Shown here: in pieces, positions 3,345 to 24,363 of the stretch
How the letters are laid out: every line of letters begins with the position of its first letter
Numbering within the stretch: the first letter of the stretch is position 1
IMG/VR virus record: IMGVR_UViG_3300010883_000427
Location: 1 to 25,035 of that record
Source of the DNA: a virus
Reading direction: 5' to 3' (one strand)
DNA length: 25,035 nucleotides
Position numbers and translations under genes: made by a program
The notes under the pieces: generated by a model
What the model saw: the letters and a program-made list of their open reading frames with translations, nothing else
Told to the model about the DNA's origin: nothing
Database searches by the model: none

Positions 3345-4475
3345 ATGGCAGCAAAATTTTTAGTCAAGCGTACCTCGAGTACAGGTAACGCTCCAAACAC
3401 ATCTCAATTACAAACAGGTGAGCTAGCGCTCAATTTACCTGATGGAAGGATGTATGGTTCTAACGGAACTATAATCTTTGAGATAGGTGCCAATACTTCA
3501 GCTACGTCAGTAGGTGCAAACAACCTATTCATCAATGCAACAACCGCCAGAGTTAACTCAGCGTTAACAATAGGTGCCTTTACAATCCCAAGAACAGACG
3601 GAACTGCCAATCAGGTATTAACAACTGATGGTTCAGGCGCTGTTACATGGGAAGATGGATCATCAGGAGACGGCGCAGCAGGCGGCGGTCCTGGTATAAC
3701 TATTACAACATTTAAATATGAGCCTGCATCTAATCAGACTGTTTTCCAAGGCGTAGATGAGAATGGTAATATATTAGACTATGTCTCTGGACAAGAGGAC
3801 TTATATTTAAATGGTATTAAACTATTAGCAGATGATGACTATGCTGCTACGAATACAACTTGTATTACTTTAGCAGCTAATGCTGTATCTGGTGACACAT
3901 TAGAAATACAGAGAATAGTAGGTAACACTAATTATAAAGAATTTGAATATACAGTAGCATCTAACACAACATCCTTTTCTGGTGCAGACGATAATGGTAC
4001 TGTATTAAACTATATTGCAGGCGGAGAGCTTGTTTTCTTAAATGGTGTTAAACTAGTAACAACAGATGACTATGCTGCAGCTAACTCAACACATTGCGTA
4101 TTAACAGCTAATGCTGTATCAGGCGATATATTGCAAGTACTAGCATTTGGCGGAGCAACAAAAGATTTATTAGAAGCTACAGGGTATGCATCCGCAGACA
4201 CATCCTTGTTAACAATAGATACATTCAACAAGGCAACCTTTAGGACTGCTAAATACTTTATACAAGCGAACACGTCAGATTCATTTACGTCAAGTGAGGC
4301 ATTGGTAGTTCATGACGGAACTAACGCCTTTACTTCAGAGTATGGAATGATAAGCTCAAATGGTGTTTTATACGCCGTGAGTGCTGATATTTCTGGAGTG
4401 AATTGTAGGCTGAGAGTAACACCTACGAGAAGCGGGACAACATTTAAAATGAAACGAATAGGAATTAAGGTTTAA
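3345..4475 (+). CDS. Tail-fibre-like protein with tandem repeat domain (376 aa)
   Basis: The N-terminus (KFLVKRTSSTGNAPNTSQLQ, TGELALNLPDGRMYGSNG) is the same kind of short fibre N-domain as in the 404-aa protein upstream. Residues ~123-191 and ~200-268 are two copies of one domain: the phrase YLNGIKLLADDDYAATN recurs as FLNGVKLVTTDDYAAANS, and LAANAVSGDTLEI as LTANAVSGDILQV. The C-terminal ~95 residues (from about STADTSLL-like residues 282 to 376) form a further domain that is shared with the next gene at 4478-4888. A Gly-rich hinge (SSGDGAAGGGPG) lies at ~107-117. It is probably a multi-domain fibre; the modular make-up suggests receptor-binding diversity. Confidence 0.65.
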   Translation: MAAKFLVKRTSSTGNAPNTSQLQTGELALNLPDGRMYGSNGTIIFEIGANTSATSVGANNLFINATTARVNSALTIGAFTIPRTDGTANQVLTTDGSGAVTWEDGSSGDGAAGGGPGITITTFKYEPASNQTVFQGVDENGNILDYVSGQEDLYLNGIKLLADDDYAATNTTCITLAANAVSGDTLEIQRIVGNTNYKEFEYTVASNTTSFSGADDNGTVLNYIAGGELVFLNGVKLVTTDDYAAANSTHCVLTANAVSGDILQVLAFGGATKDLLEATGYASADTSLLTIDTFNKATFRTAKYFIQANTSDSFTSSEALVVHDGTNAFTSEYGMISSNGVLYAVSADISGVNCRLRVTPTRSGTTFKMKRIGIKV

Positions 4476-4477
4476 AC

Positions 4478-4888
4478 ATGGCTAAGACAAAAGCATTTAA
4501 CATGGCAGAGTTGATCAGGCATTTAAATTACAATGCGACAAATGATACACTTGAAACAACAAAGTCAATTAAATCAGAAGGTAAAGTAAGAAAGACTAAG
4601 GTCACTACAACAACTAGTCAGCAAGAAATTGACTCGTTTGTAAAGGCTGATTACAGCGCAGCGCAGTATATAATTACTGCTAGTCAGGGTGGTGAGTTTC
4701 ACACAACTGTTATATTAATAAACCATGACAGCACAACAGCATTTGATACTCAATACGCAGATGTAATGAGCGATGCTGTCATAGCTACGTATGCAGGTAA
4801 TGTGAGTGGAAGTACCATTCAGCTATTAGCCACACCAGTAGCAACAAACACTACATTTAAATTCCAAGTTGAATTTGTAGATGCATAA
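4478..4888 (+). CDS. Small fibre-domain protein (136 aa), paralogue of the preceding C-terminal domain
   Basis: It starts two bases after the previous stop. Residues ~45-136 align by eye with the C-terminus of the 376-aa protein: AAQYIITASQGGEFHTTVIL versus TAKYFIQANTSDSFTSSEAL, then DSTTAFDTQYADVMSD versus DGTNAFTSEYGMISSN, then GSTIQLLATPVATNTTFKF versus NCRLRVTPTRSGTTFKM. The first ~45 residues are basic and helical (AFNMAELIRHLNYN) and have no counterpart there. It looks like a free-standing copy of a fibre tip domain with a new helical anchor. A virion role is inferred. Confidence 0.6.
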   Translation: MAKTKAFNMAELIRHLNYNATNDTLETTKSIKSEGKVRKTKVTTTTSQQEIDSFVKADYSAAQYIITASQGGEFHTTVILINHDSTTAFDTQYADVMSDAVIATYAGNVSGSTIQLLATPVATNTTFKFQVEFVDA

Positions 4889-4891
4889 ATA
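4884..4891 (+). promoter_or_regulatory. Candidate late promoter CATAAATA before the 913-aa fibre gene
   Basis: It matches the T4 late motif TATAAATA and the cyanophage form NATAAATA at seven of seven fixed bases. It lies 20 bases before the ATG at 4911 and contains the stop codon of the previous gene (TAA 4886-4888). AAGGATAGGG follows as the ribosome-site region. Confidence 0.55.
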
Positions 4892-4910
4892 AAGGATAGG
4901 GACAACAAAA

Positions 4911-7652
4911 ATGGCAAATCAAAATTTTAGAGTTAAGAACGGTTTAGAAGTCGGCGGCGTAGAGGTTGTATCCTCTTCCGGTGCTGTCAATACTACCGCT
5001 TTTGGCGTATCAGGTGCATCGGCTGGTACAACAGGTAACACAACATATGTGCCTGTTATTACAGTTAATACCAGAGGTATAGTAACTAACGTTCAGTCAG
5101 CAGCTATTAGTTCAATATCTGATTATACATACACAGCAAGCAACTCAACCTTTATTCTTACTACTGGTACCGGCACTGCATTTGCACAAACACTTCCAAC
5201 AGCCAATACAACATCTTCAGGGTTTATTAAAGTAGGTGACCTACTTGCAGTTAACTCAACTGGATTTGCATCAGTATCAGAATCAAGTATTGACCATGAC
5301 GCGCTTACAAACTTTGTAGCTAACGAGCACATTGATCACTCAACCGTGAGTGTAACAGCAGGCTCTGGTCTATCAGGTGGTGGTACAATAGCAGCAACTA
5401 GAACAATTAATGTTGTAGCTGGTGACGCAATTATTACTAACTCAACAGGTGTTTTTGTTAACAACGCTGCATTAACAATTACAGGACTAGCTGATTACGG
5501 AGCTAACAAAGTAATCGATCATAGCACTATCTATATTAAAGGTGGTAATGGTTTATCAGGTAATTCAGCGATTAATGCTAACGTTGAGCTTTCTTTTGCA
5601 GCAGGCAACTCACAATTAATATCCAACACAACTGGTGTATGGATTAATTCAGCTTCAATTGATCATGACACTCTAGCTGGATTTGTAGCTAACGAACATA
5701 TTGATCACTCAGCTGTATCAGTTACAGCAGGTAATGGGTTATCTGGAGGCGGCACAATTGCAGCTACTAGAACAATAACTGTTAGTGCAGGCGACGGTGT
5801 AGCATCCAATTCAACTGGCACACACGTTGTAGGCGCAACAGGTATTGTATCTAACGCAACAGGTGTATATGCTGATGAAGGCAACATTGATCTTCATAAC
5901 CTGAGTGGATACGTAGCGAACGAACATATTGATCACTCAGCAGTTACAATAACTGCTGGTGGTGGTTTAACAGGTGGTGGTACAATAGCTGCTACTAGAA
6001 CACTAGCCATAGGCGCTGGTGTTGGTACTGTAGTAAACGCAGATGACGTAGCAGTAATTCCAGGTGATGGTATAACAGCCAATTCAACTGGTACTCACGT
6101 TGATGCATCTACCGGTCTTACAGCTAACTCTACTGGATTATTTACAAACGATTCACAAATCGTTATGACAGCATTGTCTGGTTATGACGCTAATGAAAAT
6201 ATAGATCATACTGGTGTTACTGTGACAGCAGGCGCCGGTCTTACTGGTGGTGGCACAATAGCTGCTACTAGAACATTAACAGTCGGAGCCGGTGATGGTA
6301 TAACAACTAACAGTACAGCTGTATCAGTTACAGCAGGTAATGGTGTTAGTGTTAATTCAACAGGAGCTCATGTAGTTGGCGGCACTGGTGTAGTATCCAA
6401 TTCAACAGGTGTTCATATCGGACAAGCAGTTGGTACAGGAGATACTCCTACATTTGCTGACTTGGTTATCTCTGGTAACTTAACAGTATCAGGAACAAAA
6501 ACACAATTAAACACAACTGACTTAGCAGTTAACGATGCTATTATAACAGTTGTATCTGGATTAGGCTCAGGAGTTGCTCCTTCATTGGATGCAGGTATTG
6601 AAGTTAATCGTGGTAGTGCAGCTAATGCAACCATATACTGGGATGAGTCAAATGATAGATGGACTCATAAATTAACTGGTGGAACAGAATACGTTTTCCA
6701 TACAAAAGCAACCGATATTGCTCTAGGAACAGACACATCTGGTAACTATGTTGATGGTGTAACAGCAGGCGTAGGTATAGCAGTAACACATACTCCAGGA
6801 GAAGGATCAGATCCTTCAATAGCAGTATTAGCTAATACAGGTATCGTATCTAATTCAACTGGTGTATTTGTAAACTCATCAGAAGTAGCTCATGATAGCA
6901 CAAGCGGATTTGTAGCTAACGAACATATTGATCACTCAGCAGTAAGTACAATAGCTGGTACTGGTTTAACAGGCGGCGGTACAATAGCTGCTTCTAGAAC
7001 ATTAAATGTTATAGGTGGAAACGGAATAACCGCAAACGCAGATGACGTAGCAGTAGACGCACAAACAGGACTTACAGCTAACTCTACTGGACTATTTACA
7101 AACGATTCACAAATCGTGATGACAGCATTATCTGGTTATGACGCTAATGAAAATATAGATCATACTGGTGTTACAATTACAGCTGGTAGTGGTTTAACAG
7201 GCGGCGGTACAATAGCTGCTACTAGAACATTAACAGTCGGAGCCGGAAACGGAATAAGTGTTAACGCAATTGCAACAGCAGTTTTAGCAAACACTGGTAT
7301 CACAGCTAACAGTACTGGTGTATTTAGTAAAGATTCAGAAATTGTCCATGATAGCTTAAGTGGCTTTGTAGCTAACGAACATATTGATCATACTAGTGTA
7401 TCAATCTCAGCCGGCGCTGGTCTAACTGGTGGTGGCACAATAGCTGCTTCTAGATCATTAGCAGTAACAGGCGGCACAGGAGTAGTAGCTAATTCAACAG
7501 GTGTTCATATCGGACAAGCAGTTGCAACAACATCCGCAGTCACATTTGCTGACGCGACTATATCAGCCAATACAAAGGTAACAACATTACTGGACGGTTC
7601 TAATAGAACATTAAAGATCTATAATGCCGCCGGAAGTGTGGTATGGGGGTAA
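4911..7652 (+). CDS. Large repeat tail-fibre / whisker-position protein (913 aa)
   Basis: The protein is built from at least seven copies of a ~40-residue unit: (V/D)ANE(H/N)IDH, then V(S/T)xTAGxGL(S/T)GGGTIA, then A(T/S)R(T/S)L, plus one degenerate copy (GANKVIDHSTIY). The copies are separated by linkers with phrases such as VVSNSTGVHIGQAV and GLTANSTGLFTNDSQIVM. Around residues 520-640 lies the shared fibre motif GNLTVSGTKTQLNTTDLAVN with DAGIEVNRG. Its place directly before gene 13 is where T4 carries the whisker gene wac, but the sequence is fibre-like rather than fibritin-like. It is probably a trimeric beta-structured fibre or collar appendage. Internal duplications make its length likely to vary between relatives. 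Confidence 0.7.
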   Translation: MANQNFRVKNGLEVGGVEVVSSSGAVNTTAFGVSGASAGTTGNTTYVPVITVNTRGIVTNVQSAAISSISDYTYTASNSTFILTTGTGTAFAQTLPTANTTSSGFIKVGDLLAVNSTGFASVSESSIDHDALTNFVANEHIDHSTVSVTAGSGLSGGGTIAATRTINVVAGDAIITNSTGVFVNNAALTITGLADYGANKVIDHSTIYIKGGNGLSGNSAINANVELSFAAGNSQLISNTTGVWINSASIDHDTLAGFVANEHIDHSAVSVTAGNGLSGGGTIAATRTITVSAGDGVASNSTGTHVVGATGIVSNATGVYADEGNIDLHNLSGYVANEHIDHSAVTITAGGGLTGGGTIAATRTLAIGAGVGTVVNADDVAVIPGDGITANSTGTHVDASTGLTANSTGLFTNDSQIVMTALSGYDANENIDHTGVTVTAGAGLTGGGTIAATRTLTVGAGDGITTNSTAVSVTAGNGVSVNSTGAHVVGGTGVVSNSTGVHIGQAVGTGDTPTFADLVISGNLTVSGTKTQLNTTDLAVNDAIITVVSGLGSGVAPSLDAGIEVNRGSAANATIYWDESNDRWTHKLTGGTEYVFHTKATDIALGTDTSGNYVDGVTAGVGIAVTHTPGEGSDPSIAVLANTGIVSNSTGVFVNSSEVAHDSTSGFVANEHIDHSAVSTIAGTGLTGGGTIAASRTLNVIGGNGITANADDVAVDAQTGLTANSTGLFTNDSQIVMTALSGYDANENIDHTGVTITAGSGLTGGGTIAATRTLTVGAGNGISVNAIATAVLANTGITANSTGVFSKDSEIVHDSLSGFVANEHIDHTSVSISAGAGLTGGGTIAASRSLAVTGGTGVVANSTGVHIGQAVATTSAVTFADATISANTKVTTLLDGSNRTLKIYNAAGSVVWG
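6114..6292 (+). repeat. 179-bp direct repeat, copy 1 (mate at 7068-7246)
   Basis: By hand alignment the two 179-bp blocks differ at about 18 positions. Only four of those fall in the first ~108 bases. They are 954 bases apart, a multiple of three, and encode the GLTANSTGLFTNDSQIVM to TRTLTVGAG section twice. Confidence 0.75.
7068..7246 (+). repeat. 179-bp direct repeat, copy 2 (mate at 6114-6292)
   Basis: Second copy of the block at 6114-6292, in the same reading frame of the 913-aa fibre gene. Differences concentrate in the right 70 bases, mostly at third codon positions plus the VTAGAG/ITAGSG codons. Confidence 0.75.
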
Positions 7653-7655
7653 TAT

Positions 7656-8402
7656 ATGGCCCTTCCAGCAAGTAGAGTAGCATTTAAAGAATACTGCTTA
7701 AGAAAATTAGGTTACCCTGTAATCGAAATTAATGTTGAGGACATGCAGGTCGAAGATAGAATCGACGAAGCATTACAATTTTATTGGGATTATCATTTTG
7801 ACGGTGTCGTAAAAGACTACTATAAATGGACAGTGGGCGCCTCTGACATTACAAATAGATACCTGACAGTTCCAGAAAATATTATTGGAGTTGTTAGAAT
7901 TTTTGATATTGGTGATTCACTATCAACAAATAATCTATTCAATATTAGATATCAAATTGCTTTGAATGATTTGTACGATCTAACTTCTTTCAATCAATCC
8001 CTAGTAACATACTATACTAATATGCAACACATTCAATTTATTGAAGAGCTATTAGTCGGCAGACAGCCAATCAGATATAACAGACATGTTAATAGACTAT
8101 ACGTAGACATGGATTGGGAAAAGGTGCAGGTGGGTGAAAAGATCATAGCAGAAGCATACCAGATAGTAGACCCAGAAACATTTACTAATGTCTATAAAGA
8201 TAGATGGTTGCTAAGCTATGCATCAGCAAAAATCAAATATCAATGGGGATCAAACTTAACGAAATTTGAAGGAATGCAATTACCTGGCGGCGTACAATTT
8301 AATGGAACCAAGATAATGGATGATGCAGAGCGAGAGATCAATCAGTTAGAACAAGAGATGATTTCAAGTTACAGTCTTCCAGTATCTGATATGATCGGAT
8401 AA
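7656..8402 (+). CDS. 13: Neck protein gp13 (head completion)
   Basis: 248 aa; T4 gp13 is 309 aa. Together with gp14, gp13 forms the neck that seals the filled head and docks the tail. The sequence opens with ASRVAFKEYCLRKLGYPVIE and continues with EDRIDEALQFYWDYHFDG and DRWLLSYASAKIKYQWGSNL. This is the conserved pattern of T4-type gp13 proteins, which I recognise from marine T4-like phages. GGGGG at 7645-7649 serves as a ribosome site. It is first in the compact run 13-14-15-16-17, whose genes overlap or touch. The order matches T4 exactly, which strongly supports the call. Confidence 0.9.
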   Translation: MALPASRVAFKEYCLRKLGYPVIEINVEDMQVEDRIDEALQFYWDYHFDGVVKDYYKWTVGASDITNRYLTVPENIIGVVRIFDIGDSLSTNNLFNIRYQIALNDLYDLTSFNQSLVTYYTNMQHIQFIEELLVGRQPIRYNRHVNRLYVDMDWEKVQVGEKIIAEAYQIVDPETFTNVYKDRWLLSYASAKIKYQWGSNLTKFEGMQLPGGVQFNGTKIMDDAEREINQLEQEMISSYSLPVSDMIG

Positions 8403-8408
8403 TGTTTA

Positions 8409-9161
8409 ATGCGAAGCACTTTCTTTCAGAATTACGAAGCTAGCGGAGAAGCTCGCTTAATAGAAGATCTCGTAATAGAATCTATTTCTATCTACGGGCA
8501 GGAGACTCTGTACCTTCCAAGAAACAGAGTTGAGACTGATCAGTTATATTCTGAAGCCCCTCTTTCTAAATTCGAAACTACTTATCCAATTGAGATGTAT
8601 ATTAAATCAGTTGAAGGGTTTGAAGGCGAAGGTGAGTTCATGTCTAGATTTGGTTTACAAATCCAAGACCAAATGGTACTCACAGTTGCAAGAAGAAAGT
8701 TCCAAGAAGAAATAGAAGAGTTTGAGCCAGAAATAACAAGACCAAGAGAAGGTGATTTAATATTTTTACCTTGGGTCAAAGGATCTCTTCCTACAGCGAC
8801 AGGAGCATTGTTCGAGATTAAATTTGTTAATCATGATGCAGTGTTCTATCAAATGGGCGACCTACAAACATACGACATTACATTAGAGAGATTTAACTAC
8901 TCAGAAGAAAGGCTTGATACAGGTGTCGCATTAATTGATAATATTGAAGTTGATAATTCACAAGACTATCAATTAGACGCTACTACTATTACAACAGAGG
9001 CTGGAGTCATAGTAACAGCAGAGAATGGAGTGTCGTTTATAAACGATAACTACGATAAGAGACTAGTCGATAAAGATGATGACTCAACAATGTTTGAGGA
9101 TACAGCAGATGGCTTTATTGACTTTAGTGATATTAATCCATTCAGTGAAGGAGTACTATAA
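8409..9161 (+). CDS. 14: Neck protein gp14
   Basis: 250 aa against 256 in T4. gp14 works with gp13 to complete the neck after DNA packaging. Recognisable stretches are MRSTFFQNYEASGEARLIED, YGQETLYLPR near residue 30, and LIFLPWVKGSLPTATGALFE in the middle, all typical of the family. The ATG at 8409 is used: the earlier ATG at 8402 is in another frame and closes after about 13 codons. The final TAA overlaps the ATG of gene 15 (TAATG, 9159-9163), implying coupled translation. Confidence 0.9.
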   Translation: MRSTFFQNYEASGEARLIEDLVIESISIYGQETLYLPRNRVETDQLYSEAPLSKFETTYPIEMYIKSVEGFEGEGEFMSRFGLQIQDQMVLTVARRKFQEEIEEFEPEITRPREGDLIFLPWVKGSLPTATGALFEIKFVNHDAVFYQMGDLQTYDITLERFNYSEERLDTGVALIDNIEVDNSQDYQLDATTITTEAGVIVTAENGVSFINDNYDKRLVDKDDDSTMFEDTADGFIDFSDINPFSEGVL

Positions 9162-9991
9162 TGTTCGGCCAAAAATTCTATAATGGAGTCATTAGGAAGT
9201 ATGTTATATACTTCGGGACTTTATTTAATGACTTAGAGATAGATCGAGTGGACAGTGCTGGAACAGTGCAGCAGACCTTGAGAGTCCCTATCTCCTACGG
9301 TCCTAGGCAGAAGTTTATAGAAAGGCTTGATGTGGACGCTAATCTCGACAGAAAGGTGGCATTGCAGTTACCTCGTATGTCATTTGAGATGACAGCATTC
9401 CAATACGATGCTGAAAGAAGACTGTCACCAACTAAAAAAATCTATCAAGCTAAGACAGACGATACAAATAATCTGTTATCTACATATACACCAACACCAT
9501 TTGATATAGGTTTTCAGTTAGCTATTATGGTTAAGAATGCTGAAGATGGAGTAAGAATACTAGAACAGATACTACCATTCTTTACTCCTGAATTTACAGC
9601 AACACTAAAGCTTATAGACAATATGGATTTTGTTCTTGATGTCCCAGTTATATTCCAAGGATTAAATACAGAAGATTCATATGAAGCAGACTATACAACA
9701 AGAAGAGTATTAATACATACTTTAGATTTTGTAGTAAAAGGTTTTGTATTTGGAAATGTTAAAGATCAGAAAGGTCTTATCAGATCAGCTAATACTCAGT
9801 TCCATGTTGACCCAGGTGCAACAGGCGTCTTTAAACTGGACGCTACATCTGTAGCCAGTAAGGTTGTTGTTAAACCAGGTTTAGATGCTAACGGTGTTGC
9901 AACATCTAATTCTAGCGTAAGTATAAATACTAATAGTATTAACGCTAATGATAGCTTTGGTTATATAACTGAGAAGACTTTTAATGGATAA
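9161..9991 (+). CDS. 15: Proximal tail sheath stabiliser gp15
   Basis: 276 aa against 272 in T4. gp15 caps the tail sheath and tube and joins the tail to the neck. The N-terminal pattern GQKFYNGVIRKYVIYFGTLF, then VPISYGPRQKFIERL and ALQLPRMSFEM, is highly characteristic of the family. The C-terminal ~60 residues are Asn/Ser-rich and probably flexible. A TATAAATA motif lies within this tail at 9922-9929 and may start a transcript for genes 16 and 17. The stop is eight bases inside gene 16. Confidence 0.92.
   Translation: MFGQKFYNGVIRKYVIYFGTLFNDLEIDRVDSAGTVQQTLRVPISYGPRQKFIERLDVDANLDRKVALQLPRMSFEMTAFQYDAERRLSPTKKIYQAKTDDTNNLLSTYTPTPFDIGFQLAIMVKNAEDGVRILEQILPFFTPEFTATLKLIDNMDFVLDVPVIFQGLNTEDSYEADYTTRRVLIHTLDFVVKGFVFGNVKDQKGLIRSANTQFHVDPGATGVFKLDATSVASKVVVKPGLDANGVATSNSSVSINTNSINANDSFGYITEKTFNG
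9922..9929 (+). promoter_or_regulatory. Possible internal late promoter TATAAATA ahead of genes 16-17
   Basis: This is an exact T4 late consensus inside the 3' end of gene 15, 54 bases before the start of gene 16. It is spelled by codons for Ser-Ile-Asn-Thr, so it may be chance: a few such motifs also occur deep inside other genes here. Confidence 0.3.
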
Positions 9992-10382
9992 TAATGATGC
10001 AATTGGTGAATTTTTAGAATTAGAACCAATCAAGAAAGATATAAAACAAGCCAATCAGCTTGTTAAAGATTCTAAAATAGACAATGATTTTGAATATGCT
10101 AGAGGCAACCTCTACCAAGTGATTGAGAATGGGTCCAATGCTTTGACTGATCTACTACAAGTAGCACAGCAAGGACAGCACCCGAGAGCTTACGAAGTAG
10201 TGGCTACACTAGTCAGAACATTATCTGACGCAAACATAGCGCTAATGGATTTAACTAAAAAGAAACAAGACATAACAGGGGAAGCAGTTAAGAACCCTAA
10301 TACAGTTAATAATAATCTGTTCGTCGGAAGTACCGGCGATCTTCAAAAGCTTATAAAAAAAGAATTAGATGAATCAAGTTAG
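9984..10382 (+). CDS. 16: Small terminase subunit gp16
   Basis: 132 aa; T4 gp16 is 164 aa. The small terminase forms a ring that recognises viral DNA and stimulates the gp17 motor. The conserved central part reads FEYARGNLYQVIENGSNALT, then AQQGQHPRAYEVVATLVRTL, two predicted helices forming the oligomerisation core. The short C-terminus (LQKLIKKELDE) is helical. It overlaps gene 15 by 8 bases and gene 17 by 14 bases, so the terminase subunits are translationally coupled. Its position immediately before gp17 confirms the assignment. Confidence 0.9.
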   Translation: MDNNDAIGEFLELEPIKKDIKQANQLVKDSKIDNDFEYARGNLYQVIENGSNALTDLLQVAQQGQHPRAYEVVATLVRTLSDANIALMDLTKKKQDITGEAVKNPNTVNNNLFVGSTGDLQKLIKKELDESS

Positions 10383-11991
10383 AGAGAACTACCTAGGAAA
10401 TCCAAACCTTAAACGCGCCAATGTTCCTCAGGAGTTTTCTCCAGAGCAAGTTAGTGAATTTATTAAGTGTAGTAAATCTCCGCTCTATTTTATTAATAAC
10501 TATATACAGATTGTCAATATAGATGAAGGCTTAATTCCTTTTGACTTATATGATTTTCAAGAAGATATAGTTGATCTTATTACAGAAGAAAGATTTGTAA
10601 TATGTAAGATGCCTAGACAGTCAGGTAAGACGACAACAGTCGCAGCTGTGCTATTATGGTATATAATGTTCCATGAATCGTTTTCATTAGCTATTCTTGC
10701 TCATAAGTCTCAACAATCAAGAGAAATATTAGGAAGAATATCTTTAGCATACGAACACTTACCAAGATGGTTACAACTAGGTGTAGTAGAATGGAACAAA
10801 GGTAACGTAGAATTAGAAAATGGTTCCAAGATATTAGCTGCATCTACATCAGCATCAGCTATTAGAGGTGGATCATTTAACCTTATTTACTTAGACGAGT
10901 TTGCATTCGTTCCAATGCATATACAGGAAGAGTTTTTTGCTTCTGTATATCCTACGATTTCATCTGGTAATACTTCTAAAGTATTAATAACATCCACACC
11001 TAATGGAATGAATCTATTCTATAAGATATGGAATGATAGTGAAAATGAACTAAATGACTATAAAAGAATAGACGTTCATTGGTCTGACATTCCTGGAAGA
11101 GATGAGAAGTGGAGAGAAATGACCATCAGAAATACTTCTGCTGATCAGTTTAGAGTTGAGTTCGAATGTGAATTCATAGGAAGCTCAAATACATTAATAA
11201 GCCCGTCAGTATTAAAGCGGCTCGTATATGAGAATCCAATCTTTACAAACGAAAGTATAAGAGTATTTGAAAGCGCTCAGAAAGATCATCTTTATCAGAT
11301 GGTAGTTGACACGGCGCGTGGGGTTAACAATGATTATTCGGCATGTGTAGTATTAGATATTACTGAATTACCTCATAGAGTAGTATGTGTGTATCAGAAC
11401 AATACAATAAGCCCAATGAATTATCCAGTTGTATTGCAATCGATGGCCAAGCAATACAATAATGCCTATATATTAGTAGAGTCAAACGATATTGGTATGA
11501 GTGTAGTCGAGAGTCTGCACAATGAATTAGAAGTAGAAAACGTTCTTATGTCAGCTGCTAGAGGAAGAGCAGGGCAAGTACTTTCATCAGGGTTTGGCGC
11601 AGGTGGACAGTATTTTGGTGTTAGAACAACGAAGCAAGTTAAGCGGAACGGTTGTTTGAATCTTAAGACTTTAATCGAGAGTGATCAGCTGATTATCTCT
11701 GACTTTAAAATCCTAGAAGAGTTAACACATTTTACGCAAAAAGGTGAATCATGGGAAGCAGATGGCGGGCATGATGATTTAGTTATGTGTTTAGTTCTTT
11801 ATGGATGGTTAAGTATACAAGACTACTATAAGGAAATAACAAGCACTGATATACGTAAACATATTCAAGGGCAGAGTGCTGCACAGCATGAAGAGGATAT
11901 GTTACCATTAGGGTTTATAGATGATGGCCACGAAGACGTACCAGGGGGTATGGAAATAATTGACTGGGAGACAGGAGACAAGGTTTTCTAA
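10369..11991 (+). CDS. 17: Large terminase subunit gp17 (packaging ATPase/nuclease)
   Basis: 540 aa; T4 gp17 is 610 aa. It pumps DNA into the prohead through the portal and cuts the concatemer. The ATPase domain shows Walker A PRQSGKT at residues 82-88, Walker B LIYLDE at 172-177 with catalytic Glu177, and the coupling motif TSTPNG at 208-213. The RNase H-fold nuclease domain shows MVVDTARG (Asp314), VESND (Glu371, Asp374) and GGHDDLV (Asp469/Asp470), the expected acidic cluster. The C-terminal ~50 residues are acidic and variable. The start at 10369 lies inside gene 16. All catalytic motifs are present, so the enzyme is predicted to be active. Confidence 0.96.
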   Translation: MNQVRENYLGNPNLKRANVPQEFSPEQVSEFIKCSKSPLYFINNYIQIVNIDEGLIPFDLYDFQEDIVDLITEERFVICKMPRQSGKTTTVAAVLLWYIMFHESFSLAILAHKSQQSREILGRISLAYEHLPRWLQLGVVEWNKGNVELENGSKILAASTSASAIRGGSFNLIYLDEFAFVPMHIQEEFFASVYPTISSGNTSKVLITSTPNGMNLFYKIWNDSENELNDYKRIDVHWSDIPGRDEKWREMTIRNTSADQFRVEFECEFIGSSNTLISPSVLKRLVYENPIFTNESIRVFESAQKDHLYQMVVDTARGVNNDYSACVVLDITELPHRVVCVYQNNTISPMNYPVVLQSMAKQYNNAYILVESNDIGMSVVESLHNELEVENVLMSAARGRAGQVLSSGFGAGGQYFGVRTTKQVKRNGCLNLKTLIESDQLIISDFKILEELTHFTQKGESWEADGGHDDLVMCLVLYGWLSIQDYYKEITSTDIRKHIQGQSAAQHEEDMLPLGFIDDGHEDVPGGMEIIDWETGDKVF

Positions 11992-12002
11992 CCACCGGTT
12001 TT

Positions 12003-12010
12003 AATAAATA
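12003..12010 (+). promoter_or_regulatory. Candidate late promoter AATAAATA before gene 18
   Basis: It lies in the 57-base gap between genes 17 and 18, 39 bases before the gp18 ATG, and is followed by a strong ribosome site AGAGGAG at 12035-12041. It fits NATAAATA and its placement is as expected for a highly expressed late gene. Confidence 0.6.
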
Positions 12011-12048
12011 TAATCAGACGATTTATTGATTTTTAGAGGAGACATAAT

Positions 12049-14139
12049 ATGGGATTTCAAGTTAGTCCTGGTGTAAATGTAAGCGAAATAGACTTAACCA
12101 CAGTCGTACCTGCAGTCTCTACTACAGAAGGCGCAATAGCTGGCGTATTCAATTGGGGTCCCGCTGAACAGCGAGTCCTAGTTGATAGTGAAACATCTTT
12201 AGTTGCTAGATTTGGGGAACCAACATCTGACAACGCAGAGACTTTTTTCACTGCTGCCAACTTTTTGTCTTATGGAAATAAACTATACGTTGTTAGAACA
12301 GTTTCATCAGCAGCAAGAAATGCTACTGGTGTTGTTGCAGGCGGGAATACATCTGGAATCTCTTTAAAGAATTCAGATTCTCTTGACGCTGCAGTAACTG
12401 CTGCTAACGATGCTCATATCACCGCGGCAAAATATGTCGGTGTTAGGGGTAATGGTTTACGAGTAGAGGTTTGTGATAGTACGAGTGCTTGGCAAAGCAA
12501 CGTTGTTTTAATTAACGGCGGCGCTGCAAGTGCAAACGCAGACATTGCAACATCAGATACAGTTACAAAAATGTCTTTCAGTATTGGTAGCACTAGTGCA
12601 ACCATAGCATTGAAAGGCGCATCAAGTAGTGTTGCAAACGCTACATTAACAACCTTATTGACAGGTGTTGCTGCTGATTTACAAGTAGGAGACCTAGTTA
12701 AAGTAGGTAACTCTTCTATAGGTGAACAGAAGTTAAGCATTAAATCAATAGCTGCAGCAGGTTCAGATACATATGTCGATGACGGCAGTGGTGTATTTAC
12801 AGCTAGCAGAACGGTTACATTAAATAATAGATTCACATTATCTACTGATTATAGTACAGGAACAATACAAAGGTTCTGGAAGTATAGCGATTCATTCGAC
12901 AATGCTCCAGGCACATCAACTTACGCAGCTGGAAAAGGCGGCGCAGGTGATGAAGTTCATGTTGTAGTAGTAGATGAAGCTGGTGACATTACCGGAACTC
13001 AAGAAACAATTCTTGAGAAATGGGAAGCTCTTTCAAGAGCCACTGACGCTAAAAACGAAAGCGGCGAATCTACTTATTACTACGACAAAATTAACGATGC
13101 TTCTGAATGGATTTACTTTGTAAATTCAGTATCAGGTCACACACCAGGAATTGCTTCTGGATTGACTGCATTATCTACAGCACTTCCGGTGAAGCTTGAC
13201 TTCGCAGGTGGCCTAGATGGTAGCACAGAATCTAGTATCTCATTAGGAGATATAGCAGTTGGTTACGACTTGTTCTCAGACGGAGCAGATGTAGATGTAT
13301 CATTAGTAATGATAGGTAAGAGTAAAGGCGGCACCAACGGTGAAGCATTACTTAACTACGTAATCGATAATATTTGCGAAGTAAGAAAAGATTGCGTTGC
13401 GTTTGGTTCGCCAGACAAAGCGGATGTCGTAGACGTTACAGCCCCTTCAACAGCAGCAGACAATGTCGTCGCATTTAGAAACACTTGTAGATCGTCTTCT
13501 TATGCTATGTTAGATAGTGGTTATAAATACGCTTACGATAAGTACAACGACGTTTACAGATGGGTCCCATTAAATGGCGACGTAGCTGGTCTTTGTGCTA
13601 GAACTGACAACGAAAGAGATGCTTGGTTTTCACCAGGTGGTTTCAATAGAGGTCAGATCAAAAACGTAATTAAGTTAGCGTTCAACCCAAGACAAGCATA
13701 TAGAGATGTACTTTACAAAGCAGGTGTTAACCCAGTAGTTGCATTCCCAGGTCAGGGAACAGTTCTATTTGGTGATAAGACATTGCTAAGTAAGCCTTCT
13801 GCATTCGATAGAATCAACGTAAGACGTTTATTCATCGTTCTAGAGAAAGCAATTAGTACAGCTTCTAACTTCACATTGTTCGAGTTCAATGATGAGTTTA
13901 CTAGATCACAGTTTGTTAACCTAGTTGAGCCTTTCTTAAGAGATGTTCAAGGGCGAAGAGGAATATATGACTTTAGGGTTGTATGTAACGATTCAAACAA
14001 CACTGGCGAAGTAATCGACAGAAACGAATTTGTAGGAGATATTTATATCAAACCTGCTAGATCAATTAACTTTATTCAACTAAACTTTGTAGCCGTTAGA
14101 TCGGGTGTAGAATTTAGTGAAGTAGTTGGAAAATTTTAA
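12049..14139 (+). CDS. 18: Contractile tail sheath protein gp18
   Basis: 696 aa against 659 in T4. It polymerises around the tail tube and contracts during infection. The N-terminus (FQVSPGVNVSEIDLTTVVPA, then GAIAGVFNWGP) is the conserved sheath start. The C-terminal polymerisation domain contains GVNPVVAFPGQGTVLFGDKT, then NVRRLFIVLEKAI, FEFNDEFTRSQFVN and DIYIKPARSINFI, all hallmark sheath motifs. The middle (residues ~100-330) is Ala/Ser/Thr-rich and corresponds to the surface-exposed variable domains. A strong ribosome site and a late-promoter motif precede it, fitting a major structural protein. Tail tube gene 19 follows after 10 bases. Confidence 0.95.
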   Translation: MGFQVSPGVNVSEIDLTTVVPAVSTTEGAIAGVFNWGPAEQRVLVDSETSLVARFGEPTSDNAETFFTAANFLSYGNKLYVVRTVSSAARNATGVVAGGNTSGISLKNSDSLDAAVTAANDAHITAAKYVGVRGNGLRVEVCDSTSAWQSNVVLINGGAASANADIATSDTVTKMSFSIGSTSATIALKGASSSVANATLTTLLTGVAADLQVGDLVKVGNSSIGEQKLSIKSIAAAGSDTYVDDGSGVFTASRTVTLNNRFTLSTDYSTGTIQRFWKYSDSFDNAPGTSTYAAGKGGAGDEVHVVVVDEAGDITGTQETILEKWEALSRATDAKNESGESTYYYDKINDASEWIYFVNSVSGHTPGIASGLTALSTALPVKLDFAGGLDGSTESSISLGDIAVGYDLFSDGADVDVSLVMIGKSKGGTNGEALLNYVIDNICEVRKDCVAFGSPDKADVVDVTAPSTAADNVVAFRNTCRSSSYAMLDSGYKYAYDKYNDVYRWVPLNGDVAGLCARTDNERDAWFSPGGFNRGQIKNVIKLAFNPRQAYRDVLYKAGVNPVVAFPGQGTVLFGDKTLLSKPSAFDRINVRRLFIVLEKAISTASNFTLFEFNDEFTRSQFVNLVEPFLRDVQGRRGIYDFRVVCNDSNNTGEVIDRNEFVGDIYIKPARSINFIQLNFVAVRSGVEFSEVVGKF

Positions 14140-16368: not shown

Positions 16369-16383
16369 TAATGGAGAATGAAT

Positions 16384-16638
16384 ATGCCTGATGTAGATTA
16401 TAATAAAGTGAATGTTGATGATATTGTTAAAGGCGCTATAGGCGATAAACCAGTATCAGTTAAGCAAGCGTTCGATGACGAGATGCTAAATAGAGTAGCA
16501 GATGTTATCTCTGGTAAGAGAGATGAAGTAGTTCAGTCCATGGTTGGTAATAAAGAACCAGAAGAGGTTGAAGCAGAAGCAGAAGCACCTGAAGAAGTAG
16601 CAGATGTTGAGCCGGAAGAAGATGGACTCGACGCATAA
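16384..16638 (+). CDS. 67: Acidic prohead core protein, gp67-like (5' part, ends at an in-frame TAA)
   Basis: 84 residues before TAA at 16636. Position between portal gene 20 and protease gene 21, small size and a strongly acidic second half (EEVEAEAEAPEEVADVEPEE) match T4 gp67, an internal core component of the prohead. The ATG at 16384 is preferred to the one at 16378 because GGAG at 16373-16376 is 7 bases before it but only 1 base before the other. The reading frame continues past the stop for 38 acidic codons to TAG at 16753 (see the next entry), so the natural product was probably 123 aa. The gp67 name rests on synteny and composition, not alignment. Confidence 0.6.
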   Translation: MPDVDYNKVNVDDIVKGAIGDKPVSVKQAFDDEMLNRVADVISGKRDEVVQSMVGNKEPEEVEAEAEAPEEVADVEPEEDGLDA

Positions 16639-16755: not shown

Positions 16756-16764
16756 AGGAATAAA

Positions 16765-19343: not shown

Positions 19344-20219
19344 ATGAACCTAAATCAAAACTTAGTTGAAAAGTGGCAGCCAATTCTTGAGCACGAAGAT
19401 CTACCAACGATCGGAGATTCTCATAAACGAGCAGTTACAGCCCAACTATTAGAAAATACAGAAATAGCGTTAAGAGAAGGAAGCGCTTATTCTTCACAAT
19501 CACTCCTCTCAGAAGCAGGAACTCACACTCCTGTCAACGCAACTGGCACAGCTGGTTTCGGTGACGGCGTTCAGAACTATGATCCTGTTTTAATTAGCTT
19601 AGTAAGAAGAGCTATGCCTAACCTTGTTGCATATGACATGTGTGGCGTTCAGCCTATGTCTGGACCTACTGGTCTTATATTTGCAATGAGAAGTAAGTAT
19701 ACTACTGCTGCTAACTCAGCCACTGAAGCATTCTACAACGAAGCAGATACTGCTTTCGGAACTATTAATGCTGGTGCAAACACTGTCGGTGACAAAAACG
19801 TCGGTACTACACCTGCTACAGCGAATAACGCTGAAGCTGGATTGTATAACTTTGCAGACGGTATGTCTACTAACCAAGCTGAAGCTCTCGGAAATGCATC
19901 TAACGCTGCTTTCCCTGAAATGGCTTTCTCAATTGAGAAAGTATCTGTTACAGCTGGGTCAAGAGCTCTGAAAGCTGAATACACAATGGAACTTGCTCAG
20001 GATCTTAAAGCCATTCATGGTCTAGATGCTGAAACAGAACTTGCGAATATTCTTTCTACAGAAATTCTTGCAGAGATTAACAGAGAAATCATTAGAACAA
20101 TTAACGTTGTTGCTAAGCAAGGTGCTCAAACTGATACAACAACCGCCGGAACATTTGATCTAGATACTGATTCAAATGGTCGTTGGTCTGTTGAGAAGTT
20201 CAAGGGCTTAATGTTCTAA
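19344..20219 (+). CDS. 23: Major capsid protein gp23, N-terminal part (ends at an in-frame TAA)
   Basis: 291 residues before TAA at 20217. Family motifs are clear: NLVEKWQPILEHEDLP at the N-terminus; the region after VTAQLLENTEIALREG; SLVRRAMPNLVAYDMCGVQP; LIFAMRSKYT; then VTAGSRALKAEYTMELAQDL, LKAIHGLDAETELANILSTE and NREIIRTINVVAKQGA. The stop falls in the well-known conserved stretch GRWSVEKFKGLMF-x-IERDANQIA, where T4 has Lys and marine relatives typically Gln. The frame and homology continue without a gap afterwards (20220-20687). A full gene would encode about 447 residues, normal for marine gp23. A protein ending here would lack the capsid C-terminal portion and could not build a capsid. 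Confidence 0.9.
   Translation: MNLNQNLVEKWQPILEHEDLPTIGDSHKRAVTAQLLENTEIALREGSAYSSQSLLSEAGTHTPVNATGTAGFGDGVQNYDPVLISLVRRAMPNLVAYDMCGVQPMSGPTGLIFAMRSKYTTAANSATEAFYNEADTAFGTINAGANTVGDKNVGTTPATANNAEAGLYNFADGMSTNQAEALGNASNAAFPEMAFSIEKVSVTAGSRALKAEYTMELAQDLKAIHGLDAETELANILSTEILAEINREIIRTINVVAKQGAQTDTTTAGTFDLDTDSNGRWSVEKFKGLMF
20217..20219 (+). other. In-frame TAA inside gene 23
   Basis: Codon 292 reads TAA between TTC and ATC. Upstream and downstream codons align without indel to the conserved gp23 phrase LMF(Q/K)IE. A single C-to-T change from CAA would create it. Confidence 0.85.
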
Positions 20220-20687
20220 ATCGAAAGAGATGCTAACCAAATTGCAAAAGACACTCGTAGAGGAAAGGGTAACGTATTGATCACATCAAGTGACGTTGCT
20301 TCTGCTTTACAAATGGCTGGCGTGCTTGATTATGCTCCTGCTTTAAACTCAAACAACCTCCAAGTTGATGACACTGGTAATACTTTTGCCGGCGTACTTA
20401 ACGGACGTTATAGAGTTTACATCGATCCTTACACTACTGGTAACTATTACACATTAGGTTATAAAGGATCTTCAAGCTTCGATGCTGGTCTTTTCTATTG
20501 CCCATATGTTCCATTACAAATGGTTCGTGCGGTCGGTGAGAATACTTTCCAACCAAAAATTGGCTTTAAAACTCGTTACGGCGTAGTTGCAAATCCATTT
20601 GCTGAAGGAACTGCTTACGGCGCTGGTGCATTAACTAAAGACTCTAACGTATATTACAGAAGAGTATTGGTTAACAACATCATGTAA
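20220..20687 (+). CDS. 23: Major capsid protein gp23, C-terminal part (same frame after TAA)
   Basis: 155 further codons in the same frame: IERDANQIAKDTRRGKGNVL, then SSDVASALQMAGVLDYAPAL, FAGVLNGRYRVYIDPY, GLFYCPYVPLQMVRAVGEN and FKTRYGVVANPFAEG. This is the conserved C-terminal half of the T4-type capsid protein, which closes the HK97-like fold. There is no ribosome site or ATG near the break; the first start-like codon is TTG at 20277, inside a conserved strand. I therefore read it as part of gene 23 and not as a second gene. Confidence 0.88.
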   Translation: MERDANQIAKDTRRGKGNVLITSSDVASALQMAGVLDYAPALNSNNLQVDDTGNTFAGVLNGRYRVYIDPYTTGNYYTLGYKGSSSFDAGLFYCPYVPLQMVRAVGENTFQPKIGFKTRYGVVANPFAEGTAYGAGALTKDSNVYYRRVLVNNIM

Positions 20688-21149: not shown

Positions 21150-21578
21150 ATGCCATATTCACAGAAAGTAGTAGACAGATTTAACGCTGTATTAGATGAA
21201 CCATCCAAACATGGAGTTGGTAGATTCGACCCAGCTGATCCAAACGTAGCTACTGGTATGACAGGTGCACCAGCATGTGGTGATGTCATGAAATTGGATC
21301 TTAAAATCAATCCAGATAATAATATTATTGAAGACGTAAAATTTAAAACGTACGGTTGTGGCTCTGCAATTGCATCTTCCTCTCTATTTGTTGATATGCT
21401 TATCGGTCTAACTACCGAAGAAGCTTCTCTCATTAAAGATAAAGACATAGCAGAAGCTCTGGAGCTTCCATCAATCAAGATACATTGCTCTGTATTAGCT
21501 CAAGATAGCATACAGATGGCAATTACTGATTGGAAAGGAAAGCTCGATAAGAGAAAACATAACCAGTTCGATGATTGA
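21150..21578 (+). CDS. iscU: IscU-type Fe-S cluster assembly scaffold
   Basis: 142 aa; bacterial IscU is ~128. IscU holds a nascent [2Fe-2S] or [4Fe-4S] cluster built from cysteine sulfur (IscS) and passes it on. All ligands are present: Cys43 and Asp45 in GAPACGDVMKLDLKIN, Cys70 in KFKTYGCGSAIASSS, His112-Cys113 in IKIHCSVLAQDS. The HscA-recognition motif, LPPVK in E. coli, reads LPSIK at 106-110. About ten extra residues lie near the N-terminus and a charged tail (DKRKHNQFDD) at the end. Ribosome site AGGAG is 5 bases before the ATG. It overlaps iscA by 8 bases. No iscS, hscA or fdx is nearby, so host partners would be needed. As a phage gene it is a likely auxiliary metabolic gene. Confidence 0.95.
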   Translation: MPYSQKVVDRFNAVLDEPSKHGVGRFDPADPNVATGMTGAPACGDVMKLDLKINPDNNIIEDVKFKTYGCGSAIASSSLFVDMLIGLTTEEASLIKDKDIAEALELPSIKIHCSVLAQDSIQMAITDWKGKLDKRKHNQFDD

Positions 21579-21936
21579 GTTAACCGATGCAGCGGTAATT
21601 AAGGCGGCTGAGAAAGCAAAGGATGATGGTAGAAGTACTATTTCATTTGGGATTACTGGCGGTGGCTGTTCTGGTTACGAGTATGTTATTAAGTGGGCTG
21701 ATGATGGCCCTTTACAAGGTACTATAACAGACTACGGAAATTTCCAGATCTATATTGAAGCAGGCAGCGAACCTTACTTAATGGGATCAACATTAGACTG
21801 GGTTAAAGAAGGTCTAAATGAATCATTCAGGATAGTCAATCCTAATGAAGAAGCGGCATGTGGATGCGGAGTTAGCATCTTGTTCGATCAAGATAAGATA
21901 AATACTAATGAAGCTTTATTAATGGAGACCGCATGA
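21571..21936 (+). CDS. iscA: IscA/ErpA-type (A-type) Fe-S carrier protein
   Basis: 121 aa. A-type carriers receive clusters from the scaffold and deliver them to target enzymes. The diagnostic Cys-X63-Cys-Gly-Cys pattern is intact: Cys33 in GGGCSGYEY and Cys97/Cys99 in EEAACGCGVSI. The N-terminal helix and beta region (IELTDAAVIKAAEKA, STISFGITGGGCSG) match the family. The C-terminus is ~12 residues longer than usual (KINTNEALLMETA) and carries a GATAAATA late-promoter motif in its coding sequence. It overlaps iscU by 8 bases and gene 3 by 4 (ATGA). Whether it is closer to IscA, ErpA or SufA cannot be decided by eye. Confidence 0.93.
   Translation: MIELTDAAVIKAAEKAKDDGRSTISFGITGGGCSGYEYVIKWADDGPLQGTITDYGNFQIYIEAGSEPYLMGSTLDWVKEGLNESFRIVNPNEEAACGCGVSILFDQDKINTNEALLMETA
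21897..21904 (+). promoter_or_regulatory. Candidate late promoter GATAAATA inside iscA, ahead of gene 3
   Basis: It fits NATAAATA and lies 28 bases before the gene 3 ATG, within codons for the extra C-terminal residues of iscA (Asp-Lys-Ile-Asn-Thr). It could let gene 3 be transcribed late, independently of the Fe-S genes. Confidence 0.45.
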
Positions 21937-22958: not shown

Positions 22959-23159
22959 ATGATATTACCAAACGACACAGAAGCTAGACACATTGTATGG
23001 GAACTGCATCACGAGATGCACAACACTCGTAATTGTGGATTCACCGGCCTTGATATGAAGAAAAGGCTCTGGGGTATAAAGAATGCTGTTGACGCAGCTC
23101 TAGCAACTGCACCCAAGTACCACGGCGAACCAGAGTTCAAGGAAATTGAAGTTAAATGA
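22959..23159 (+). CDS. Small protein (66 aa) between uvsY and the dehydrogenase, unknown
   Basis: 66 aa with ribosome site AGGA at 22948-22951, 7 bases before the ATG. The sequence is helical and rich in His, Arg and Trp (EARHIVWELHHEMHNTRNCG, then DMKKRLWGIKNAVDAAL). It recalls small conserved proteins next to uvsY in marine T4-like phages, none with a known function. There is no Cys pair or zinc-finger pattern. The TGA overlaps the ATG of the next gene (ATGA, 23156-23159), so it is coupled to the dehydrogenase. Confidence 0.65.
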   Translation: MILPNDTEARHIVWELHHEMHNTRNCGFTGLDMKKRLWGIKNAVDAALATAPKYHGEPEFKEIEVK

Positions 23160-23947
23160 AAGCAGCTATATTAGGATACGGCTTCGTAGGTAAAGCTACT
23201 GAGCAATTATTGATAGACACAGAGTTTGATATTGTTATACAAGATCCAGCACTCGGCTTAAAAATTGATGATTGGACAGACGTAGAGTATGTTTTTATAT
23301 GTGTACCTACTCCTCTGTATGCAACATCTTTTGTCGATGAAAATGGATCAAAGATTCCTGTCTGCGGCAGACTAGAATTACGTCTTGTAGACAATGCAAT
23401 AAGATCTATACCTACTTGTCCAAATGGTAAGCCTCCAAGGATAGTAATACGAAGTACTATTGGCCCAGATCAGCTATCAGCTGATTGGTTATTTATGCCG
23501 GAGTTTTTAAGAGAGATTCATTGGGCAGAAGATGTAGCTAATAAAGACAAGTCTATTATTATAGGCGGGCATGGCGCAGCTGCTCTAGGCGCTCTCATGC
23601 CTAAAGGTAGACAGGTTAAGATAGTTACCGCTAAGGCTGCAGCTATATTTAAATTGAGTCGTAATGCTATGCTAGCAGCAAAGGTAATTATGGCCAATGA
23701 GATCAAAGAGGTATGCGAGACGTATCAAGTTGATTATGAAACTGTTAAAGAGTTATTCATTGTGGATGGTACACTAGGTACTACTCATTTTGATGTTCCG
23801 GGACCAGATGGCAAGTCTGGATTTGGAGGTAAGTGTCTACCTAAAGACACAGAGCATTTCGCTGGGCTACTTCCCTTAACGGATCGTTTTAGTGCAGTGA
23901 ATATATTTAATACGACCGTTATAGAAAATCAAAAGTACAGAAAATGA
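23156..23947 (+). CDS. Short UDP-glucose / GDP-mannose dehydrogenase-like protein
   Basis: 263 aa; cellular enzymes are ~390-450. The NAD-binding Rossmann start is clear (AILGYGFVGKATEQLL, Gly7-x-Gly9-x-x-Gly12), followed by FICVPTPL (48-54), RSTIGP (~99-104), PEFLREIHWAEDV (115-127), and the central helix KLSRNAMLAAKVIMANEIKE. The catalytic-cysteine motif GFGGKCLPKDT is intact with Cys227. The C-terminal sugar-nucleotide-binding domain of full-length enzymes is missing, so the substrate may differ or a partner may be required. It is flanked by 4-base ATGA overlaps on both sides, in one operon with a nucleotidyltransferase. A role in sugar-nucleotide oxidation for glycan or capsule modification is inferred. 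Confidence 0.82.
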   Translation: MKAAILGYGFVGKATEQLLIDTEFDIVIQDPALGLKIDDWTDVEYVFICVPTPLYATSFVDENGSKIPVCGRLELRLVDNAIRSIPTCPNGKPPRIVIRSTIGPDQLSADWLFMPEFLREIHWAEDVANKDKSIIIGGHGAAALGALMPKGRQVKIVTAKAAAIFKLSRNAMLAAKVIMANEIKEVCETYQVDYETVKELFIVDGTLGTTHFDVPGPDGKSGFGGKCLPKDTEHFAGLLPLTDRFSAVNIFNTTVIENQKYRK

Positions 23948-24363
23948 AAATAGGATTCACATGTTCAGCGTTTGATCTGTTGCATGCAGGTCATATTAAT
24001 ATGCTAAGAGAAGCTAAGTCACAATGCGACCATCTCATTTGTGGATTGCAGGTTGATCCATCTCTCGATCGAGATACAAAAAACAAACCTATTCAAACAA
24101 TCGTAGAAAGATATACTCAACTGCAAGCAGTTAGCTATGTAGATGAGATTATTCCCTATGTATACGAGCAAGATCTTAAAGACATCTTAATGATGATGCC
24201 AATTAATATACGTATATTAGGTGAAGAGTATCGCAATGCATCCTTTACAGGTAAAGAGATCTGTCAAGAGAGAGGCATTGAGCTATACTTTAATAATAGA
24301 TCACATAATTTCTCTACGAGCAACCTCAGAAAAAGGGTAGAAGATAATCCAAAGAATGTCTGA
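23944..24363 (+). CDS. TagD-like cytidylyltransferase (glycerol-3-phosphate cytidylyltransferase family)
   Basis: 139 aa, the usual size of the family. The nucleotidyltransferase signature is complete: FTCSAFDLLHAGHINMLREA with His14-x-Gly16-His17, then LICGLQVDPSLD, and the C-terminal STSNLRKRV segment equivalent to the family's second nucleotide-binding motif. LGEEYRNASFTGKEIC resembles phage members. The family activates glycerol-phosphate or sugar phosphates with CTP. The exact substrate is not visible. It starts inside the stop of the dehydrogenase gene and ends 8 bases inside uvsW, so the two sugar-nucleotide genes are wedged between uvsY and uvsW in one operon. Confidence 0.85.
   Translation: MKIGFTCSAFDLLHAGHINMLREAKSQCDHLICGLQVDPSLDRDTKNKPIQTIVERYTQLQAVSYVDEIIPYVYEQDLKDILMMMPINIRILGEEYRNASFTGKEICQERGIELYFNNRSHNFSTSNLRKRVEDNPKNV

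Follow-up and report, generated by a model that had tools for sequence, protein, structure and literature searches.

An in-frame ochre codon in the major capsid gene of an uncultivated T4-like phage is probably a consensus error

Why does the major capsid gene of a T4-like phage carry a stop codon within its reading frame? We analysed 25,035 nucleotides of IMGVR_UViG_3300010883_000427, an uncultivated-virus record assembled from a marine phage (positions 1 to 25,035; hereafter the window), in which codon 292 of the gp23 gene, in frame with the ATG at 19344, is TAA. Premature stops in the major head gene are familiar from the classical amber and ochre mutants of T4 gene 23, which make a fragment and no capsid and, as conditional lethals, are propagated in the laboratory on hosts with a suppressor. 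The window phage resembles these mutants in its premature major-head stop, but no suppressor is seen in it. The initial annotation listed a consensus error, a real nonsense mutant and readthrough as options; sequence comparison favours the first two and disfavours the third.

An interrupted frame in an ordinary head module

Past codon 292 the gp23 frame remains open to its final TAA, giving 447 codons before that stop (Table 1). The whole frame matches 376 of 376 positions of the Pfam Gp23 family (PF07068, E 1.3e-150) with one TAA inside, and positions 3–286 and 288–444 of PHROG 138 'major head protein' match residues 1–291 and the remainder, respectively. Frame, Pfam and PHROG 138 together confirm the original observation that an in-frame TAA interrupts a major capsid gene whose gp23 sequence runs on to codon 447, and a stop with the two parts of one conserved domain in frame on either side of it is not just a chance occurrence. 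Relatives keep the surrounding phrase EKFKGLMF-x-IERDANQIA. The uninterrupted frame of the T4-type gp23 family is broken in the window record only, and the TAA is a lesion in a member of that family, with no evidence of another family.

Table 1 Features of the window that bear on the in-frame stops
Feature	Position in window	Strand	Support
Neck protein (gp13-like), intact in window; codon 12 is TAA in 3300009420_001906 and 3300027813_000522	7656..8402	+	
Prohead-core (gp67-like) frame, closed by second private TAA (16636-16638)	16378..16638	+	PHROG 1064 'prohead', E 1.6e-4
gp23 (major capsid), N-terminal 291 codons and in-frame TAA	19344..20219	+	PHROG 138, E 6e-93
In-frame TAA, gp23 codon 292	20217..20219	+	CAA in near-identical record; CAA, CAG or CAC in relatives
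gp23 C-terminal part, 155 codons and natural stop, same frame	20220..20687	+	PHROG 138 positions 288-444, E 8.5e-64

The T4-like head module around gp23 is normal. Genes for a portal, a small prohead-core-like protein, a protein in the prohead protease position and a scaffold precede gp23, and a prohead core protein lies immediately upstream of gp23 in three T4-like records inspected, as in the window. The remaining recognised conserved genes of the window are uninterrupted. Elsewhere, the window encodes a 913-residue repetitive protein, tail-type by eye (4911–7652), in whose gene a 182-base stretch at 6111–6292 recurs at 7065–7246 with 89.6% identity. UDP-glucose/GDP-mannose dehydrogenase-like and cytidylyltransferase-like genes (23156–24363) lie 3′ of the structural genes and ahead of a helicase-like gene.

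Codon 292 in related phages

Using an exact pattern with codon 292 left open, we found a second IMG/VR record, 3300009420_001906 (52,248 bases), that aligns to all 25,035 window bases with nine substitutions and no insertions or deletions (99.96% identity). The two records are the same phage population. At codon 292 this record reads CAA, and its gp23 gene has no internal stop; unlike the window, it has a nonsense codon in the neck gene, where codon 12 is TAA. Outside the region shared with the window (L100 13686–15078 and L101 810–4315) we noted by eye a queC-like gene with a glutamine amidotransferase and folE-, queD- and queE-like genes, a set that suggests 7-deazaguanine DNA modification.

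A sense codon stands at the homologous position in all 80 related gp23 loci from IMG/VR (CAA in 53, CAG in 25 and CAC in 2), encoding glutamine in 78 and histidine in 2. Among cultured phages the codon is CAG in Stenotrophomonas phage DLP6 and CAA in Methylophilales phage Melnitz and Pelagibacter phage HTVC008M; these three records have no internal gp23 stop, unlike the window. Over the full protein, marine and other T4-like gp23 sequences (Melnitz, HTVC008M, DLP6 and Synechococcus phages) are about 64–72% identical to that of the window, and T4 gp23 itself (PDB sequence) aligns glutamine at the site, at about residue 356 of the precursor by a manual count on the alignment. We also searched 2.9 million viral contigs in IMG/VR, leaving out the window's own record, with a degenerate pattern that places TAR at codon 292 of the phrase; the pattern covered the form in which Ile follows the codon, without its Val and Leu variants, and returned no other carrier. 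By these comparisons the codon 292 stop is private to the window record. The initial annotation had proposed that reads with CAA at this codon would mark the stop as an error; at the level of contigs, the 99.96%-identical record and all relatives do carry a sense codon there.

Assembly damage is present in such records. The gp23 gene of the closest relative, 3300030333_002321 (91%), contains 10 N where scaffold pieces were joined, followed by a short CAGGGC; we considered a frameshift error in this gene and rejected it, the break being a scaffold gap plus a short duplicated end. Another IMG/VR gp23 locus (L061) has a broken 3′ end.

Nonsense differences between near-identical records

The nine differences between the window and 3300009420_001906 comprise three nonsense, three missense and three synonymous changes, distributed over both records. 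The window carries the nonsense codon at gp23 codon 292 and at codon 87 of the prohead-core-like gene, and 3300009420_001906 carries it at neck codon 12; all three fall in head or neck genes. Without selection about 3–5% of changes (4.6%) are expected to be nonsense, and under purifying selection almost none. At least three of nine would arise by random unselected change with P of about 0.002–0.006, a test that is post hoc in part, one of the three sites having prompted the choice of the window. Several of the nine sites have no matching relative, and there the direction of change is not assignable. One missense difference, at 21490, gives 3300009420_001906 phenylalanine in place of a serine, which we take to be conserved, beside the cysteine of an 'HCS' motif in a NifU_N/IscU-like protein. 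The gene for this scaffold overlaps a gene for an Fe-S_biosyn (A-type carrier) protein (21150–21936), forming a phage-borne iron-sulphur assembly pair. Lesions in both records, in genes indispensable to a phage, have the look of unfiltered errors or unfiltered new mutations.

At the second private TAA of the window, 3300009420_001906 reads GAA and the prohead-core-like frame continues to a TAG at 16756–16758, 6 bases ahead of the next gene start. In the window the shorter frame opens a gap of 126 bases within a tightly packed arrangement of genes. We considered this TAA as a second lethal lesion and set that reading aside: among the relatives listed with a closed frame the protein spans 60–112 residues, and because length varies in this way an 86-residue version may be tolerated.

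The neck gene, named gp13-like from gene order and a reading of its sequence (a Pfam search of the protein gave no match), is probably essential. Its codon 12 (position 7689) is GAA in the window and TAA in both 3300009420_001906 and a third record, 3300027813_000522, whose 8,690 bases correspond to window positions 4310–12999 and differ from the window at 7689 only; at 7487 and 9089, both synonymous sites, this third record has the bases of the window. The stop was not found in viral contigs beyond these two records. All relatives found have a conserved glutamate at codon 12, and 3300009420_001906 is therefore the changed record there. The TAA in two records may reflect either one read set assembled twice or a real nonsense allele in two samples. 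Given that JGI has reassembled data sets, we suspect that one set of reads underlies both 3300009420 and 3300027813. Unless the same reads were assembled in both, some nonsense calls may be something other than isolated errors.

Origin of the codon 292 stop

The TAA is probably a single-base C-to-T consensus error in the assembled contig, in a gp23 gene that is otherwise ordinary. Such a change could have begun as a read, amplification or template-damage error and been fixed in the consensus by low coverage, and the capsid protein of the living phage population would have its full 447 residues, with glutamine as residue 292. From assembled sequences we infer sequencing or assembly, rather than the virion, as the source of the change. 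Because the 99.96%-identical record and every relative examined have a sense codon, the stop is almost certainly a one-base sequencing or assembly error, or at most a dead mutant, with no new biology. A rare, real but non-viable genome ranks second and is less likely. The TAA would then be a true nonsense mutation, in a genome that is non-viable or dependent on complementation, or in a minority variant of a mixed population picked by the assembler, an origin to which we assign a low though not negligible probability. TAA is one base away from CAA, synonymous differences between the near-identical records indicate that the population may be polymorphic, and the neck gene provides a nonsense codon common to two records. 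Against this, gp23 ending at residue 291 is without over a third of its conserved domain, which would keep the genome from spreading; the 52 kb of 3300009420_001906 showed no further gp23-family copy; and a dead variant should be rare and would thus seldom become the consensus. On either account the living phage almost certainly lacks the stop.

Decoding of the TAA, by a suppressor tRNA, by reassignment of TAA or by a local readthrough signal, would also yield a full-length capsid, and the intact downstream gp23 frame is compatible with it. Phages do reassign stop codons, TAG to Gln and TGA to Trp; these cases concern TAG and TGA (PMC11210395). In the window TAA is the commonest terminator (21 of 30 genes, with TGA ending 6 and TAG 3), and we rejected an alternative genetic code on this terminator use. 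TAA is neither recurrent in frame nor avoided as a terminator: internal stops occur at the two private sites only, among the genes listed, and across 7,818 codons the gp23 stop is the sole internal one when the prohead-core-like gene is taken as ending at its own TAA. Both CAA (166) and CAG (92) are in normal use. Neither the window nor the 52 kb record, both of which are fragments of a larger genome, yielded a tRNA gene, and there was no Rfam match; the fold 3′ of the codon 292 stop does not improve on shuffled sequences (z −0.77). The stop was found in no relative, and it thus lacks the conservation expected of programmed readthrough. With TAA the commonest terminator, and with no tRNA, Rfam element or unusual fold, decoding of TAA is very unlikely. 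Even less credible is that ochre codons at GAA or CAA positions are tolerated in the population, the host decoding UAA leakily enough for full-length head proteins; the sites behind this reading are the two private to the window and the one common to the two other records. Least probable of all is a split capsid, in which two polypeptides co-assemble and the second restarts at TTG 20277 (codon 312). A mechanical open reading frame does begin at that TTG, preceded by the purine-rich stretch AGAGGAAAGGG, but because this stretch encodes RRGKGN, a motif of gp23 itself, its presence is accounted for by protein conservation. Neither the relatives nor the near-identical record show a split at that point.

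Were the ochre codons real and tolerated, the host would have to decode UAA naturally and efficiently, a surprising result. For uncultivated viruses the case counsels caution: where a nonsense codon appears in an essential gene of one record, near-identical records should be compared before recoding or suppression is inferred.
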